Positions 31,172-35,317 of a stretch of DNA of 64,000 nucleotides are shown in pieces. Position 1 is the first letter of the stretch; each line of letters opens with the position of its first letter. The notes beneath the pieces were generated by a model. The model had not been told where the DNA came from. It did not search any database and saw nothing but the letters and a program-made list of their open reading frames with translations. Position numbers and translations under genes: made by a program. The DNA comes from Candidatus Aegiribacteria sp. MLS_C (GTDB taxonomy: Bacteria; Fermentibacterota; Fermentibacteria; Fermentibacterales; JCC-6): the NCBI GenBank assembly GCA_002030045.1, contig LQBI01000032.1, positions 1-64,000 of the forward strand, given 5' to 3'.

Positions 31172-32478
31172 CACGACTCCTTCCCCCTGGCCCTTATGGC
31201 GTCCTGGGCCTTCTTGATGTAATGGACCAGGTACCTGCCTGAAGGGCATACGTAGCTGCAGGTGCCGCAGGCCATGCAGTTGAGGGCACCGAACTCCTCT
31301 GCCATGTCCCATCTCCCGTTCTCCGCCGCAAGGGCGATGAGATTTGGAGTGAGCCTCAGAGGACAGGCGTCGACACACTTCCCGCACCTGATGCAGGGAC
31401 CCTCGGACACGTCCCTCGCTTCCGAAGAGGTGAGGGCAAGCACGCCGCTGGTCCCCTTTGTGACCGGCACTTCATCGGTGTAAAGCGAGATGCCCATCAT
31501 CGGACCTCCGCTGATGAGCCTCTCCACATCTTCCGTGTAGCCTCCGGATGCCTCGATCAGGACCGAGAAGGGTGTACCCACACTGGTGTCGTAGTTCCCC
31601 GGGGAAGCCACCCCCCTGCCCGTGACCGTAACTATTCTCCTCAGGGAGGGCTCCCCGTCCCGCACGGCGCGTGCCACGGCAACTGCCGTACCCACGTTCT
31701 GAACTACAACACCTATGTCCATGGGAAGCCCTCCTGCCGGTACTTCTCGGCCGGTAGCCGCATCGATCAGCTGTTTCTCGGCCCCCTGCGGATATCTGAC
31801 CTTCAGGGGGAGGACGGTGCAGCCCTTCTTCTCCATGAGTTCGATGGCGTCCGGCTTGTTCTCCTCTATGCCGACGAGGTATCTGTCAACGCCGAGGCAA
31901 TAGGCCAGTATCTCCATTCCGAGCTTGATATCCTCAGGGTTCTCGAGCATCAGGCGATGATCGGCCGTCAGATAAGGTTCGCACTCCACGCCGTTTATCA
32001 CAAGGGTATCGATGCACTTGCCTGGAGGCGGTGAGAGCTTTACATAGGTGGGAAAGCTGGCCCCGCCCATGCCGCACACACCCGCCAGCCTGATCCTCTC
32101 CACAAGCTCCTCGGGAGAATGGGCGGTATGGTCGCTCCAGGGCTCGAATACCTGTCCTCCATCCTCTGACTCGGTCTCGATGATCACTGCGGGTCCGGTG
32201 CGCCTGTGAGGCATGGGAGCATCCTCCACCGCACTGACCGTGCCGTTCACCGGTGAATGGGTGGGGAGGCTTATGAAGCCGTTCTGAGACCCTATCTCCT
32301 GCCCTCGCTCCACTCTGTCACCCTTGGCCACAATGGGGTTCGACGGTGCGCCCAGGTGCTGGCAGAGTGGCACGACAACCAGCTCAGGTGCCGGTATCCT
32401 CCGTATGGCGCACCCCGAAGAGAGGTTCTTGCTCCCGGGAGGATGAGTACCTCCCCTGAAAGTCCTGGCCTTGGTCAT
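31171..32478 (-). CDS. rnfC: Rnf complex NADH-binding subunit RnfC
   Basis: Peripheral subunit that reduces NAD+. The protein has 435 residues. The N-terminal barrel (RGGTHPPGSK, then GDRVERGQEIG) is followed by the nucleotide/FMN domain with GMGGASFPTYVK and NGVECEPYLTAD. Two C-terminal [4Fe-4S] motifs are CIRCGKCVDACP and CMACGTCSYVCP. The ATG at 32478 is preceded by AGGAGG three bases upstream; a TTG at 32511 would add 11 residues without a site. It is the first gene of the rnf-sel operon. Confidence 0.95.
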   Translation of the reverse strand: MTKARTFRGGTHPPGSKNLSSGCAIRRIPAPELVVVPLCQHLGAPSNPIVAKGDRVERGQEIGSQNGFISLPTHSPVNGTVSAVEDAPMPHRRTGPAVIIETESEDGGQVFEPWSDHTAHSPEELVERIRLAGVCGMGGASFPTYVKLSPPPGKCIDTLVINGVECEPYLTADHRLMLENPEDIKLGMEILAYCLGVDRYLVGIEENKPDAIELMEKKGCTVLPLKVRYPQGAEKQLIDAATGREVPAGGLPMDIGVVVQNVGTAVAVARAVRDGEPSLRRIVTVTGRGVASPGNYDTSVGTPFSVLIEASGGYTEDVERLISGGPMMGISLYTDEVPVTKGTSGVLALTSSEARDVSEGPCIRCGKCVDACPLRLTPNLIALAAENGRWDMAEEFGALNCMACGTCSYVCPSGRYLVHYIKKAQDAIRARGKES

Positions 32479-32559
32479 GTGCCTCCTCGGTTTTCTGTTG
32501 GCTTTCGGCAATAGTATGAGATCAATGTCTGCAGGAACGGAAGCCGACGGAAGCCGGCA

Positions 32560-33009
32560 TCACTTCAGCAGCCTGTCCAGCTCTTCCTTGAACTGGGATA
32601 CGTCCTTGAATTTCCTGTATACGCTGGCGAACCTCACGTAGGCCACCTGGTCCACCTGGTGAAGGTACTCCATCACGCACTCCCCGATGAATCTGACCGA
32701 CACTTCCTCAGGGAACTCCTCGGTTATTCGGGCTATGACCCTGTCCACAAGGTCCCTCAGGTCCTCGGCGGATACAGGTCTCTTCTCGCATGCCCTGTCG
32801 ATGCCCTTCTCCAGCTTCTGCCTGTCGAAGGGTTCACGGCGGCCGTCGTTCTTGACAACCACCGGGAATGACTGCTCGATATACTCGTATGTGGTGAACC
32901 GGTAGCCGCACTCGGCGCACTCCCTGCGGCGCCTCGTGGCCTCGCCGTCCCGCACGGTACGGGAATCGATGACCCTGTCATCCATGCCTGAACAGCGGGG
33001 ACATTTCAT
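32560..33009 (-). CDS. nrdR: transcriptional repressor NrdR
   Basis: Nucleotide-sensing repressor of ribonucleotide reductase genes. The protein has 149 residues. The N-terminal zinc ribbon has CPRC at residues 3-6 and CAEC near 31-34, followed by the family stretch GYRFTTYEYIE. The ATP-cone domain follows (VVKNDGRREPFDRQKLEKGI). The start has GGAG eight bases upstream. No ribonucleotide reductase gene is nearby. It may share transcription with rnfC 82 bases downstream. Confidence 0.97.
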   Translation of the reverse strand: MKCPRCSGMDDRVIDSRTVRDGEATRRRRECAECGYRFTTYEYIEQSFPVVVKNDGRREPFDRQKLEKGIDRACEKRPVSAEDLRDLVDRVIARITEEFPEEVSVRFIGECVMEYLHQVDQVAYVRFASVYRKFKDVSQFKEELDRLLK

Positions 33010-33096
33010 GGCTCAACTCCATTTGAGGCTGTCGGGTCAATTCGGAATTCGGTACCCACCGAGCTGTACAAGTAAGGAGAATAATAGTAAATATCC

Positions 33097-33125
33097 TTGA
33101 CGAGGTACACCGGTATCCTTAGAAT
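33097..33125 (+). promoter_or_regulatory. promoter of the tRNA-His/tRNA-Lys unit
   Basis: TTGACG (33097-33102, five of six), 17-base spacer and TAGAAT (33120-33125, five of six) on the plus strand. The start would fall about seven bases before tRNA-His. Confidence 0.75.
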
Positions 33126-33139
33126 CAGCGGGTTCCTGC

Positions 33140-33216
33140 GGTGGGAGTAGTTCAGTTGGTAGAGCCCCTGACTGTGGATCAGGTGGTCGCCGGTTCAAGT
33201 CCGGTCTCCCACCCCA
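33140..33216 (+). tRNA. tRNA-His (anticodon GTG)
   Basis: Full cloverleaf: acceptor GTGGGAG/CTCCCAC, anticodon stem CCTGA/TCAGG with loop CTGTGGA, T arm with GGTTCAAGTCC. The extra G(-1) at 33140 opposite C73 is typical for tRNA-His. CCA is encoded at 33214-33216. Confidence 0.96.
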
Positions 33217-33221
33217 TCAAT

Positions 33222-33297
33222 GCGCCTCTAGCTCAACTGGCAGAGCAACGGACTCTTAATCCGTAGGTTCCGGGTTCGATTCCCGGGGGGCGTACCA
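33222..33297 (+). tRNA. tRNA-Lys (anticodon CTT)
   Basis: Cloverleaf with acceptor GCGCCTC/GGGGCGT (G-T at the first pair), anticodon stem ACGGA/TCCGT and loop CTCTTAA, T arm GGGTTCGATTCCC. CCA is encoded. It lies five bases after tRNA-His and is followed after three bases by the first hairpin array. Confidence 0.96.
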
Positions 33298-33300
33298 TGG

Positions 33301-33481
33301 CTGAATAAGGGGACGTGAGGTGATTCCTCCGTCCCCTTATTCAGCTTGCAGTTTGCGGAACAAACTGAGGGCCGTTGAGACGTGAGGTGATTCCTCCGTC
33401 CCCTTGTTCAGCTTGCAGTTTGCGGAACAAACTGAGGGCCGTTGAGACGTGAGGTGATTCCTCCGTCCCCTTGTTCAGCTT
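33301..33481 (+). repeat. 67-bp two-hairpin repeat array 1, behind tRNA-Lys
   Basis: Three copies of the core GACGTGAGGTGATTCCTCC begin at 33312, 33379 and 33446, exactly 67 bases apart. The first copy forms a long hairpin with a perfect 15-bp outer stem (33301-33315 with 33330-33344) and an inner GAGG/CCTC stem. The second hairpin of each unit is CAGTTTG, loop CGGAA, CAAACTG (33349-33367). No reading frame is maintained and there is no T run. Confidence 0.85.
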
Positions 33482-33556
33482 GGGCTGATATGATCCGGGT
33501 TCTCATGTATATTCCTCTTCAGAACGATACGTTCGCATTCGAAATACTGACACGGT
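33482..33556 (+). other. spacer between hairpin array 1 and tRNA-Arg
   Basis: Unique sequence with no gene. It should hold any separate promoter for tRNA-Arg, but no good -35/-10 pair was seen, so tRNA-Arg may be co-transcribed with the two tRNAs upstream. Confidence 0.4.
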
Positions 33557-33633
33557 GCGCCCGTAGCTCAGCTGGATAGAGCAGCGGACTTCTAATCCGC
33601 AGGCCACAGGTTCGAATCCTGTCGGGCGTACCA
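33557..33633 (+). tRNA. tRNA-Arg (anticodon TCT)
   Basis: Cloverleaf with acceptor GCGCCCG/CGGGCGT, anticodon stem GCGGA/TCCGC and loop CTTCTAA, T arm AGGTTCGAATCCT. CCA is encoded at 33631-33633. The second hairpin array starts three bases later. Confidence 0.96.
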
Positions 33634-33635
33634 TG

Positions 33636-33745
33636 TTGAATAAGGGGACGTGAGGTGATTCCTCCGTCCCCTTGTTCAGCTTGCAGTTTGCGGGGCAAAC
33701 TGAGGGCCGTTGAGACGTGAGGTGATTCCTCCGTCCCCTATTCAG
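33636..33745 (+). repeat. 67-bp two-hairpin repeat array 2, behind tRNA-Arg
   Basis: Two copies of the same core begin at 33647 and 33714, again 67 bases apart. The 5' side TGAATAAGGGGACG matches array 1. Differences keep the stems: a G-T pair replaces A-T in the outer stem and the loop of the second hairpin is CGGGG instead of CGGAA. The join to the tRNA (CCATG, then two bases, then TGAATAAGG) is nearly the same as behind tRNA-Lys. Confidence 0.85.
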
Positions 33746-33850
33746 TGTCGTTCACCAGGGGTCGTACGGTCGGTCGCCAGGGATACCTGGTCTTCTATAA
33801 GAAGCAAGTTCTGTGGACCTGTTCTCCTCGACGGGTGGAGATAGGACCCC

Positions 33851-35317
33851 TCAGCGAAGGACGACCAGCCTCCTGCAGGTGGTTCCGGCCGATGACCTTG
33901 CCGTAAGAGTGTAAACACCATCCGGCAGGGAGCTTCCGGCATCGTCGGTCACATTCCAGTTTATCGCATGTGTCCCAGGGGCGAGTACCGTTGCCGGCTG
34001 TGCCACCAGACGACCGCTCAGATCGAATACATCTATCGAGACGGCTTCGCCGCAGGAAAGGGATACCGTTACATAACCGCCCTCGGTGCATGGATTGGGG
34101 TAGCACGTTATTTCCGGAGGCGCGCCGGGTGAAGGGTCCTCTTGGTGAGCCACCCCTTCGTCTGTCACCATGAACTTCATCAGCAGGACGTCCCAGCCGT
34201 CGGCGCCGGTGTTTATGGTGCCGGTCATGAGATAGGTATCCTCCTCCAGCTCCATTATCTCACCTGCCTTGTCGTACCCCGGCCCCCCCATCAGGCAGTC
34301 CCACTGGAAATCTCCCGCTGCATCGAGCTTCACCAGGTAGATGTCCGTTGAGTAATAATCGTACTGGTACCTGATACCCGCCATCAGGATGCCGCCGTCC
34401 GCGGTCAGTATCATGTCCCGAACAAACTCGTCATGGTCCGGCAGGCCGAAGCACTCTTCGAATATCAGATTGCCTTCGCAGTCGAATCTGCTCAGGAAGA
34501 AGTCGTAGTCCTCGTTCTGGTCCCTGTGGTTCCCTGAAGCGATGAAGGACCCGTCCGGCATTTCGAGAACACTGTTGTAGACATCAGAGCTTCCTGTTGA
34601 ATCGGGCAAGCCGTACCACTGATCTTCTCCGGACTCGTCCAGTTTCAGGGCAACGGCAGCGGGCTGCCAGTAGTTCGATCTCCCTCCTGTTATGAAACCG
34701 TCCGATGTCTCGCTTACGCAGTACTGGTAGGTGTAGCAGTTCAGAGCGCTTTCGCCAGGGTAGGTCTCCATGATTGTCGTTCCATCGTCATCGATGACCA
34801 GGAAGTACGCCTCGCAGCCGTAGCTGCCTCCGTGGTCGCCTGCCAGGGCAAAATAGCCGTCTGAAGTCCTGATCATGCTGCTGCAGTTAGTGTAGGCGAT
34901 AGAGGACCCCCAGTGCCTCCTGCTCCAGATGGGATCGCCGTACTGGTCTGTCTTTATGGTGTATATGTATCCAACCGTCATTTCGGACTCCGAGCCGGTG
35001 ATAAGGAACCCGCCGTCGGACGTCTCCTCGGCTGCTGCGGCAGCAAGATAGTACTCACCCTCGTAGACCGAATCCCAGTACAGATCGCCCGTACTGTCGG
35101 TCCTCACCATGTAGTAGAAAAGGTACGAACCTCCGAGGTCGGCGTTGCCCGCCAATATGTAGCCACCGTCCGCGCACTGCCGGAGGCTGATGCCCTCCTG
35201 GGCCATGGGGCCACCATAGGTTTTTATCCATACGGTATCTGCCTGGGCGGCCTGTGCGTCTGCCTGAAAGGTAATCATTATCGATAAGCTAAGAAGGGAA
35301 AAACTGATAAAACTCAT
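33851..35317 (-). CDS. secreted repeat protein with C-terminal FlgD/T9SS-like sorting domain
   Basis: Predicted exported protein of 488 residues. A signal peptide covers about 1-22. Six or more repeats of about 45-50 residues follow, each with a pattern like SDGGFLITGS, ADGGILMAG or PDGSFIASGN, a beta-propeller-like layout seen in secreted proteins of FCB-type bacteria. Residues from about 410 form a C-terminal domain beginning CYPNPC with IDVFDLSGRLV and ending RRLVVLR, the pattern of FlgD-like or type IX sorting domains. Function unknown. The ATG at 35317 has GAGG six bases upstream; a perfect TTGACA lies further upstream but no good -10. Confidence 0.75.
   Translation of the reverse strand: MSFISFSLLSLSIMITFQADAQAAQADTVWIKTYGGPMAQEGISLRQCADGGYILAGNADLGGSYLFYYMVRTDSTGDLYWDSVYEGEYYLAAAAAEETSDGGFLITGSESEMTVGYIYTIKTDQYGDPIWSRRHWGSSIAYTNCSSMIRTSDGYFALAGDHGGSYGCEAYFLVIDDDGTTIMETYPGESALNCYTYQYCVSETSDGFITGGRSNYWQPAAVALKLDESGEDQWYGLPDSTGSSDVYNSVLEMPDGSFIASGNHRDQNEDYDFFLSRFDCEGNLIFEECFGLPDHDEFVRDMILTADGGILMAGIRYQYDYYSTDIYLVKLDAAGDFQWDCLMGGPGYDKAGEIMELEEDTYLMTGTINTGADGWDVLLMKFMVTDEGVAHQEDPSPGAPPEITCYPNPCTEGGYVTVSLSCGEAVSIDVFDLSGRLVAQPATVLAPGTHAINWNVTDDAGSSLPDGVYTLTARSSAGTTCRRLVVLR

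Follow-up and report, generated by a model that had tools for sequence, protein, structure and literature searches.

REP and TIR palindromes are usually viewed as near-neutral repeats behind protein genes. Repeats of the rtr type stand in tandem directly behind E. coli tyrT and include a duplicate of the 3' end of the tRNA. TIRtrons (Di Nocera 2013, PMC3733652) are RAYT-like Y1 transposase genes (TIRYT) with a terminal inverted repeat on either side, and the TIRYT type is TnpAREP subclass 2.1, with a DnaA-like C-terminal domain (PMC6006769).

Here we describe two tandem arrays of a 67-bp unit directly behind tRNA genes in the window, by which we mean the whole 64,000-nucleotide stretch of DNA that was analysed. 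The case resembles TIRtrons in its resident Y1 transposase genes between inverted repeats starting with GGGG, in a transposase (locus L016) with the DnaA-like C-terminal domain described for subclass 2.1 (PMC6006769), and in end-derived palindromic repeats that are single, paired or clustered (PMC3733652). It differs in the seventh base of the ends, which is G here and A in the published GGGGWSAS, and in a tie to tRNA 3' ends and a covarying second hairpin, both absent from the descriptions in PMC3733652 and PMC6006769. Neither of the two was found in the literature searched, subscription journals lying outside it, and within the same scope nothing on point was found that ties REP/RAYT elements to tRNA genes.

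REP/BIME/REPIN elements mobilised by RAYTs are alike in being short extragenic palindromes behind genes, in forming tandem mosaics and in having a resident RAYT-type gene; unlike them, the palindromes described here lack a GTAG foot, are few (nine perfect palindromes) and, in this genome, prefer tRNA flanks. Intrinsic terminators of tRNA operons likewise place a GC-rich hairpin directly past the tRNA, and classical terminators occupy the corresponding 3' place at other tRNAs of this genome, whereas the hairpins in the window are without a U-run. The rtr repeats share the tandem arrangement directly past a tRNA gene, but no tRNA 3'-end copy is contained in the 67-bp unit.

Several identities were rejected on these and similar grounds. 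The unit holds no tRNA sequence and is not an rtr-type repeat; a GTAG-REP was rejected since no unpaired GTAG stands beside the stems, a CGTC-REP since CGTC forms part of the stem, where it pairs with GACG, and is not unpaired at the foot, and a CRISPR since there are no variable spacers. The preliminary description of this DNA had considered terminators of an unusual kind. A strict intrinsic terminator was not supported for the copies in the window, as no terminator-like site (GC-rich hairpin with a U-run) is present in 33050-33900. Variant copies with TTTTT occur behind tRNA-Arg(CCT) in this genome and behind tRNA-Arg(TCT) in the relative G001. Among Rfam families, tRNA alone reached the threshold in 32000-35000, and none did so for the arrays.

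Layout and folding of the arrays

The host, Candidatus Fermentibacteria, is represented by a 2.98-Mb MAG with 47 tRNA matches. ARAGORN placed three tRNA genes in 33141-33633, all on the plus strand: tRNA-His(GTG) (33141..33216, the first gene of the cluster, also matched by the Rfam tRNA family), tRNA-Lys(CTT) (33222..33297) and tRNA-Arg(TCT) (33557..33633). This His-Lys-Arg cluster is kept across the family. A weak promoter-like site (9/12) lies 5' of tRNA-Arg at 33485..33513 (plus strand). Array 1 (33298..33481, plus strand) follows tRNA-Lys(CTT) with three copies, and array 2 (33634..33745, plus strand) follows tRNA-Arg(TCT) with two, both with an exact 67-bp period. A tandem period of 67 bp was detected at 33312-33482. 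The 28-nt hairpin core GGGGACGTGAGGTGATTCCTCCGTCCCC, searched with a tolerance of <=3 mismatches, gave five matches with 0-2 mismatches each (at 33309, 33376, 33443, 33644 and 33711) and none in 100 shuffles. The tRNA calls, the period and the core matches confirm the two arrays of three and two copies reported in the preliminary description, and the tRNA/array junctions were indeed close to identical (TACCATGGCTGAATAAGGGG at tRNA-Lys and TACCATGTTGAATAAGGGG at tRNA-Arg). Its statement that the arrays lie three bases past CCA needs refinement: they stand directly behind CCA, and it is the paired region that opens 2-3 nt further on (33300 versus a CCA end at 33297 at tRNA-Lys).

The 67-bp unit consists of the palindrome GGGGACG(T)GAGG..CCTCCGTCCCC and a two-hairpin scaffold, which can be written as GGCTnAA..TTnAGC (the outer stem of a long hairpin A), a TTGG linker and a second hairpin B (GGAGTTTGC..GCAAACTCC). 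Folding of the first unit of each array gave both hairpins. In array 1, hairpin A occupies 33300..33345 with fully complementary arms (33300-33315 and 33330-33345, 100%), and hairpin B, CAGTTTG-CGGAA-CAAACTG, occupies 33349..33367 and is supported by covariation as well as by the fold; in array 2 the corresponding hairpins lie at 33636..33680 and 33684..33702 (CAGTTTGC-GGG-GCAAACTG), all on the plus strand. These first copies folded far better than shuffles (z -7.9 at tRNA-Lys and z -7.4 at tRNA-Arg), and hairpin A is intact solely in them. In later copies the right arm of A is retained and the left arm is gone, GGGGACG having become TGAGACG, and copy 2 reached only z -1.2 on folding. Because the later copies are without the left arm, array 1 is read as A-B-a-B-a and array 2 as A-B-a. 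The half hairpins a lie at 33379..33412 (copy 2; core match and fold), 33446..33479 (copy 3; sequence and core match) and 33714..33745 (array 2; sequence and core match), and hairpin B of copy 2 was placed at 33416..33434 by sequence and period, again on the plus strand. The earlier claim that every unit has a long and a second hairpin therefore applies to the first copies, the long hairpin being broken in the later ones. The claim of preserved pairing among diverging copies holds in part: the stem does show an A-T to G-T change (TTATT/TTGTT), but the left arm was lost. Elsewhere in the window, at 2793-2882, a 38-bp tandem repeat of 2.4 copies has a palindromic unit of its own, GAAGAATGGGCCCATTCTTC.

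Transposase ends and the link to tRNA genes

Five Y1_Tnp transposase genes were above the cut-off in this genome. At locus L012 (contig C31), the gene lies between GGGGACGGAGGCATTTTAT..ATAAAATTCCTCCGTCCCC, terminal inverted repeats of 19 nt (95%) that share their outermost 11 nt with the ends of the palindrome family, and at L016 (contig C33) it lies in a perfect 29-nt inverted repeat (100%) that includes GGGGTCGTACGTTACTTCGGGTCACTT. Both proteins matched IS200-like transposases, and that of L016 also gave a weak DnaA-like helix-turn-helix match. Below its cut-off, both also matched the NCBIfam model for REP-associated tyrosine transposases, NF047646 REP_Tyr_transpos, which was the best match at 58.6 of 80 bits; a PDB match was obtained to TnpArep 4er8 (E 7e-4). 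The palindrome at 33309..33336, which has no assigned strand, ends as the inverted repeats of L012 do, GGGGACGGAGG and CCTCCGTCCCC being common to both. The agreement extends over just 11 nt, and relative to the L012 ends the window palindromes have one extra T on the left. GGGGACGG agrees with seven of the eight positions of GGGGWSAS, a motif reported for many, not all, TIRs. The window palindromes appear to belong to the TIRYT repeats, a kind already described. At C1:251755-251847 (L009/L094), a GGGGACG palindrome lies in the loop of a GGGGTCG-type palindrome, and one element is therefore nested in the other.

The genome was queried with the bare palindrome GGGGACG-N4..34-CGTCCCC, with no tRNA in the query. 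Results showed nine such palindromes (reversed control, 0). For five of them a tRNA 3' end lies no more than 100 nt upstream, and for six no more than 300 nt. This association of six out of nine was strong, with p = 9e-13 (about 1e-12), and p = 8e-7 (about 1e-7 to 1e-6) when only a tenth of the genome was taken as available to correct for intergenic placement. The tRNAs concerned were Lys, Arg(TCT), Arg(CCT), Leu(AAG), Leu(CAA) and Val(TAC). A second end family, GGGGTCG.., was found 7 and 10 nt past tRNA-Phe and tRNA-Glu(CTC), that is, at 2 of 12 places. The T-arm/CCA/GGGGACG junction was present in 12 of the 36 family genomes, at 21 places (reversed control, none), with the tRNA confirmed by ARAGORN at all but three, and the junction elements fell in several end families (GGGGACGGAGG, GGGGACGTACCACACTTCTTCAACTTA and GGGGACGTTCCTAAAC). 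Many tRNAs of this genome have no 3' hairpin because a gene comes close behind.

Copies were also found behind protein genes, and one 5' of a tRNA. The tRNA link was not supported as a palindrome rule for all relatives, as the 41-nt palindrome lies mostly elsewhere in G001, G002, G008, G011, G013 and G015. The earlier suggestion that tRNA 3' ends are targets of small mobile repeats thus survives in part: the palindrome agrees with the inverted repeats around a resident RAYT-type gene and several end families stand just behind tRNAs in the family, but there are copies in other places too. Random scatter of the copies, with neither a tRNA link nor pairing, was not what the search of the genome and its relatives returned. 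A cross-phylum scan yielded 21 matches, about eight of which look like real elements behind RNA genes and the rest like chance; two gammaproteobacterial MAGs had 34-36 palindrome copies each. In a gammaproteobacterial MAG (L161, 1014-1043), a GGGGACGGAGGGCGCAAGCGCTCCGTCCCC palindrome was seen 17 nt past the tmRNA 3' end, in a genome with 36 such palindromes.

Other repeats were observed at tRNA flanks. Tandem copies of the tRNA 3' end stand behind tRNA-Val(TAC) (L096, C35, 23700-23925, minus strand), as in the rtr repeats of E. coli tyrT, and, in rtr-like form, behind tRNA-Gly(GCC) (L024, C3, below 98052, minus strand); at tRNA-Val the scaffold comes after the last of these copies. Several family genomes have a further repeat, a stretch similar to GTGAGTTyATCCTGAGcGAgc..GAGTCGAAGG followed by a tRNA 3'-end copy, with sites at L021 (behind tRNA-Lys(TTT)), L080 (tRNA-Gln(CTG)), L137 and L118.

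The two-hairpin scaffold and the native hairpins of relatives

The unit of hairpins A and B occurs also without the GGGGACG core. This scaffold starts 0-2 nt past the tRNA CCA and was found in this genome (G000) behind tRNA-Lys, Arg(TCT), Leu(AAG), Leu(CAA) and Val, in degenerate form at Pro(TGG), and in the relative G003 behind tRNA-Phe, Leu(AAG) and Val, each time running in the direction of the tRNA. At the orthologous tRNA-Leu(AAG) and tRNA-Val(TAC) sites, both species have the scaffold and its paired sequences differ. The tRNA-Leu(AAG) trailer of G003 reads CCA-TGGCTGAAGGGCCCGATGC-GAAAA-GCATCGGGCCCTTCAGC-TTGG-GAGTCTGC-GAGA-GCAGACTCC, against GTCTTAAAGAGCAGCAGGGGGACGGAGG.. in this genome, and the tRNA-Val(TAC) trailer of G003 reads CCA-CGGCTC... 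The scaffold is also present at the serC-ligA junction of both genomes and at C30:151204; at serC and C30:151204 in G000, GGCTGA of the unit provides the stop codon of the upstream ORF. Orientation relative to the upstream gene was identical at all independent gene-end loci (9/9). Palindrome or scaffold copies at L198 (G013 C38) and L281 (C13:19699) overlap ORF 3' ends and supply the stop codon, and such elements were seen at the serC-ligA junction in several species.

Hairpin B covariation was counted on an alignment of its own because the alignment of covariance model R1 has B in two registers. Here, 97% of cells were paired and five of eight pairs were altered on both sides; none of 500 shuffles was as high, and slid controls were far lower. 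Two pairs of the outer stem of A were altered on both sides as well. Selection on structure, as proposed in the preliminary description, holds in part, with strong compensatory change in hairpin B across loci and between orthologous loci.

We read the Lys-Arg spacer in the 23 other genomes in which it was readable. It measures 37-75 nt there and has a single hairpin, unrelated to the array and about 10 nt or less from CCA, which varies by genus (CCGCGGGG..CCCCGCGG in the genus of this genome and GGGGACATG..CATGTCCCC in another). In this genome the spacer measures 259 nt, the array is present and the hairpin of the relatives is gone. Behind tRNA-Arg(TCT), G001 has GGGGACGGAGGTAATTGGAATTTCCAATTACCTCCGTCCC-TTTTT and G007 a plain terminator-like hairpin; behind tRNA-Leu(CAA), G003 has a plain hairpin and G007 has AAAAAGGGGACGGAAATCATCCGTCCCCTTTCTT. 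These comparisons of the Lys-Arg, Arg(TCT) and Leu(CAA) sites indicate that mobile palindromes and native hairpins swap at one place.

Origin and possible role of the arrays

The explanation that we favour, with a confidence only somewhat better than even, sees the arrays as 3'-trailer elements of tRNAs that descend from mobile sequences: TIRYT-type palindromes were taken over as trailer hairpins and then tandemly amplified. We observed the match to transposase ends, the tRNA link, the covarying pairs and the array in place of the native hairpin; the steps that follow are inferred. Dispersal of the palindromes would be due to the RAYT-type transposase, and palindromes and scaffold would most likely be kept behind tRNA genes because a strong hairpin is useful there as the 3' boundary of the precursor. 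On the precursor transcript, such a hairpin may mark this boundary because it halts or pauses RNA polymerase, blocks 3'-5' exonucleases, or does both, with correct cutting and trimming of the trailer as the result. The array element would have taken over the role from the simple hairpin present in relatives at that place, and local tandem amplification by slippage or unequal recombination could have produced the exact 67-bp period. We counted the following against the trailer explanation: no U-run terminator stands in 33050-33900; many tRNAs of this genome go without a 3' hairpin; the end match covers only 11 nt and the host genome also has other GGGGACG-like ends; the 41-nt palindrome version is multi-copy in several relatives, mostly away from tRNAs; the covariance model matched the scaffold behind tRNAs in G000 and G003 and is clear in just these two genomes; and one scaffold copy lies 5' of tRNA-Thr, between divergent genes.

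The main rival, a possible explanation but a clearly less probable one, is that the arrays are neutral hitch-hikers: REP/TIR palindromes would insert or survive at the few harmless sites, gene 3' flanks, tRNA 3' ends would be no more than safe places, and the palindromes' structure would be kept only for the need of the transposase for palindromic DNA. Copies behind protein genes and in convergent junctions are consistent with it, as for REPs generally (PMC3733652), and so are the like placement of TIR palindromes of several families and the nesting of one palindrome in another. However, few gene ends are tRNA flanks, and yet these hold six of the nine palindromes; and the array occupies a site that no longer has its native hairpin. 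Moreover, the second hairpin is foreign to transposase ends, has a single orientation, covaries and is found at orthologous sites too. Hitch-hiking accounts for the palindromes, but not for this covarying second hairpin of fixed orientation.

A site-specific mobile element appears improbable. The scaffold would then be a small transposon that integrates exactly past CCA, for example through recognition of single-stranded DNA at the tRNA 3' end, as could be suggested by the junction CCA-n-GGCT at tRNA-Lys, Phe, Leu(AAG), Leu(CAG), Val and Pro in two species and by the lineage-specific occupancy of tRNA-Lys, Arg, Leu(CAA) and Phe. Against it, a search near the five Y1 transposase genes found no scaffold beside any of them, the serC and C30 copies begin at the stop codon and not at CCA, and the sharing of subtypes by tRNAs with similar 3' ends is equally consistent with gene conversion. 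An assembly artefact, the caveat raised earlier, is unlikely as the origin of the arrays, since sister arrays stand on other contigs and in the MAG of another species (G003).

A bolder proposal, which we regard as speculative and rather unlikely, concerns the covarying scaffold, which may be a new mobile structured RNA of tRNA precursors that moves between tRNA genes, lands exactly past CCA, replaces the native trailer hairpin as the 3' boundary and is itself colonised by RAYT-type palindromes. Taken together, the earlier observation was confirmed in part, and its interpretation was likewise supported in part. In this organism, REP/TIR palindromes are tied to tRNA genes and joined with a covarying hairpin, at places where relatives have an ordinary trailer hairpin. 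The arrays may thus offer a concrete, testable case in which mobile palindromes became RNA 3'-end signals and RAYT-type elements settled preferentially in tRNA 3' flanks.
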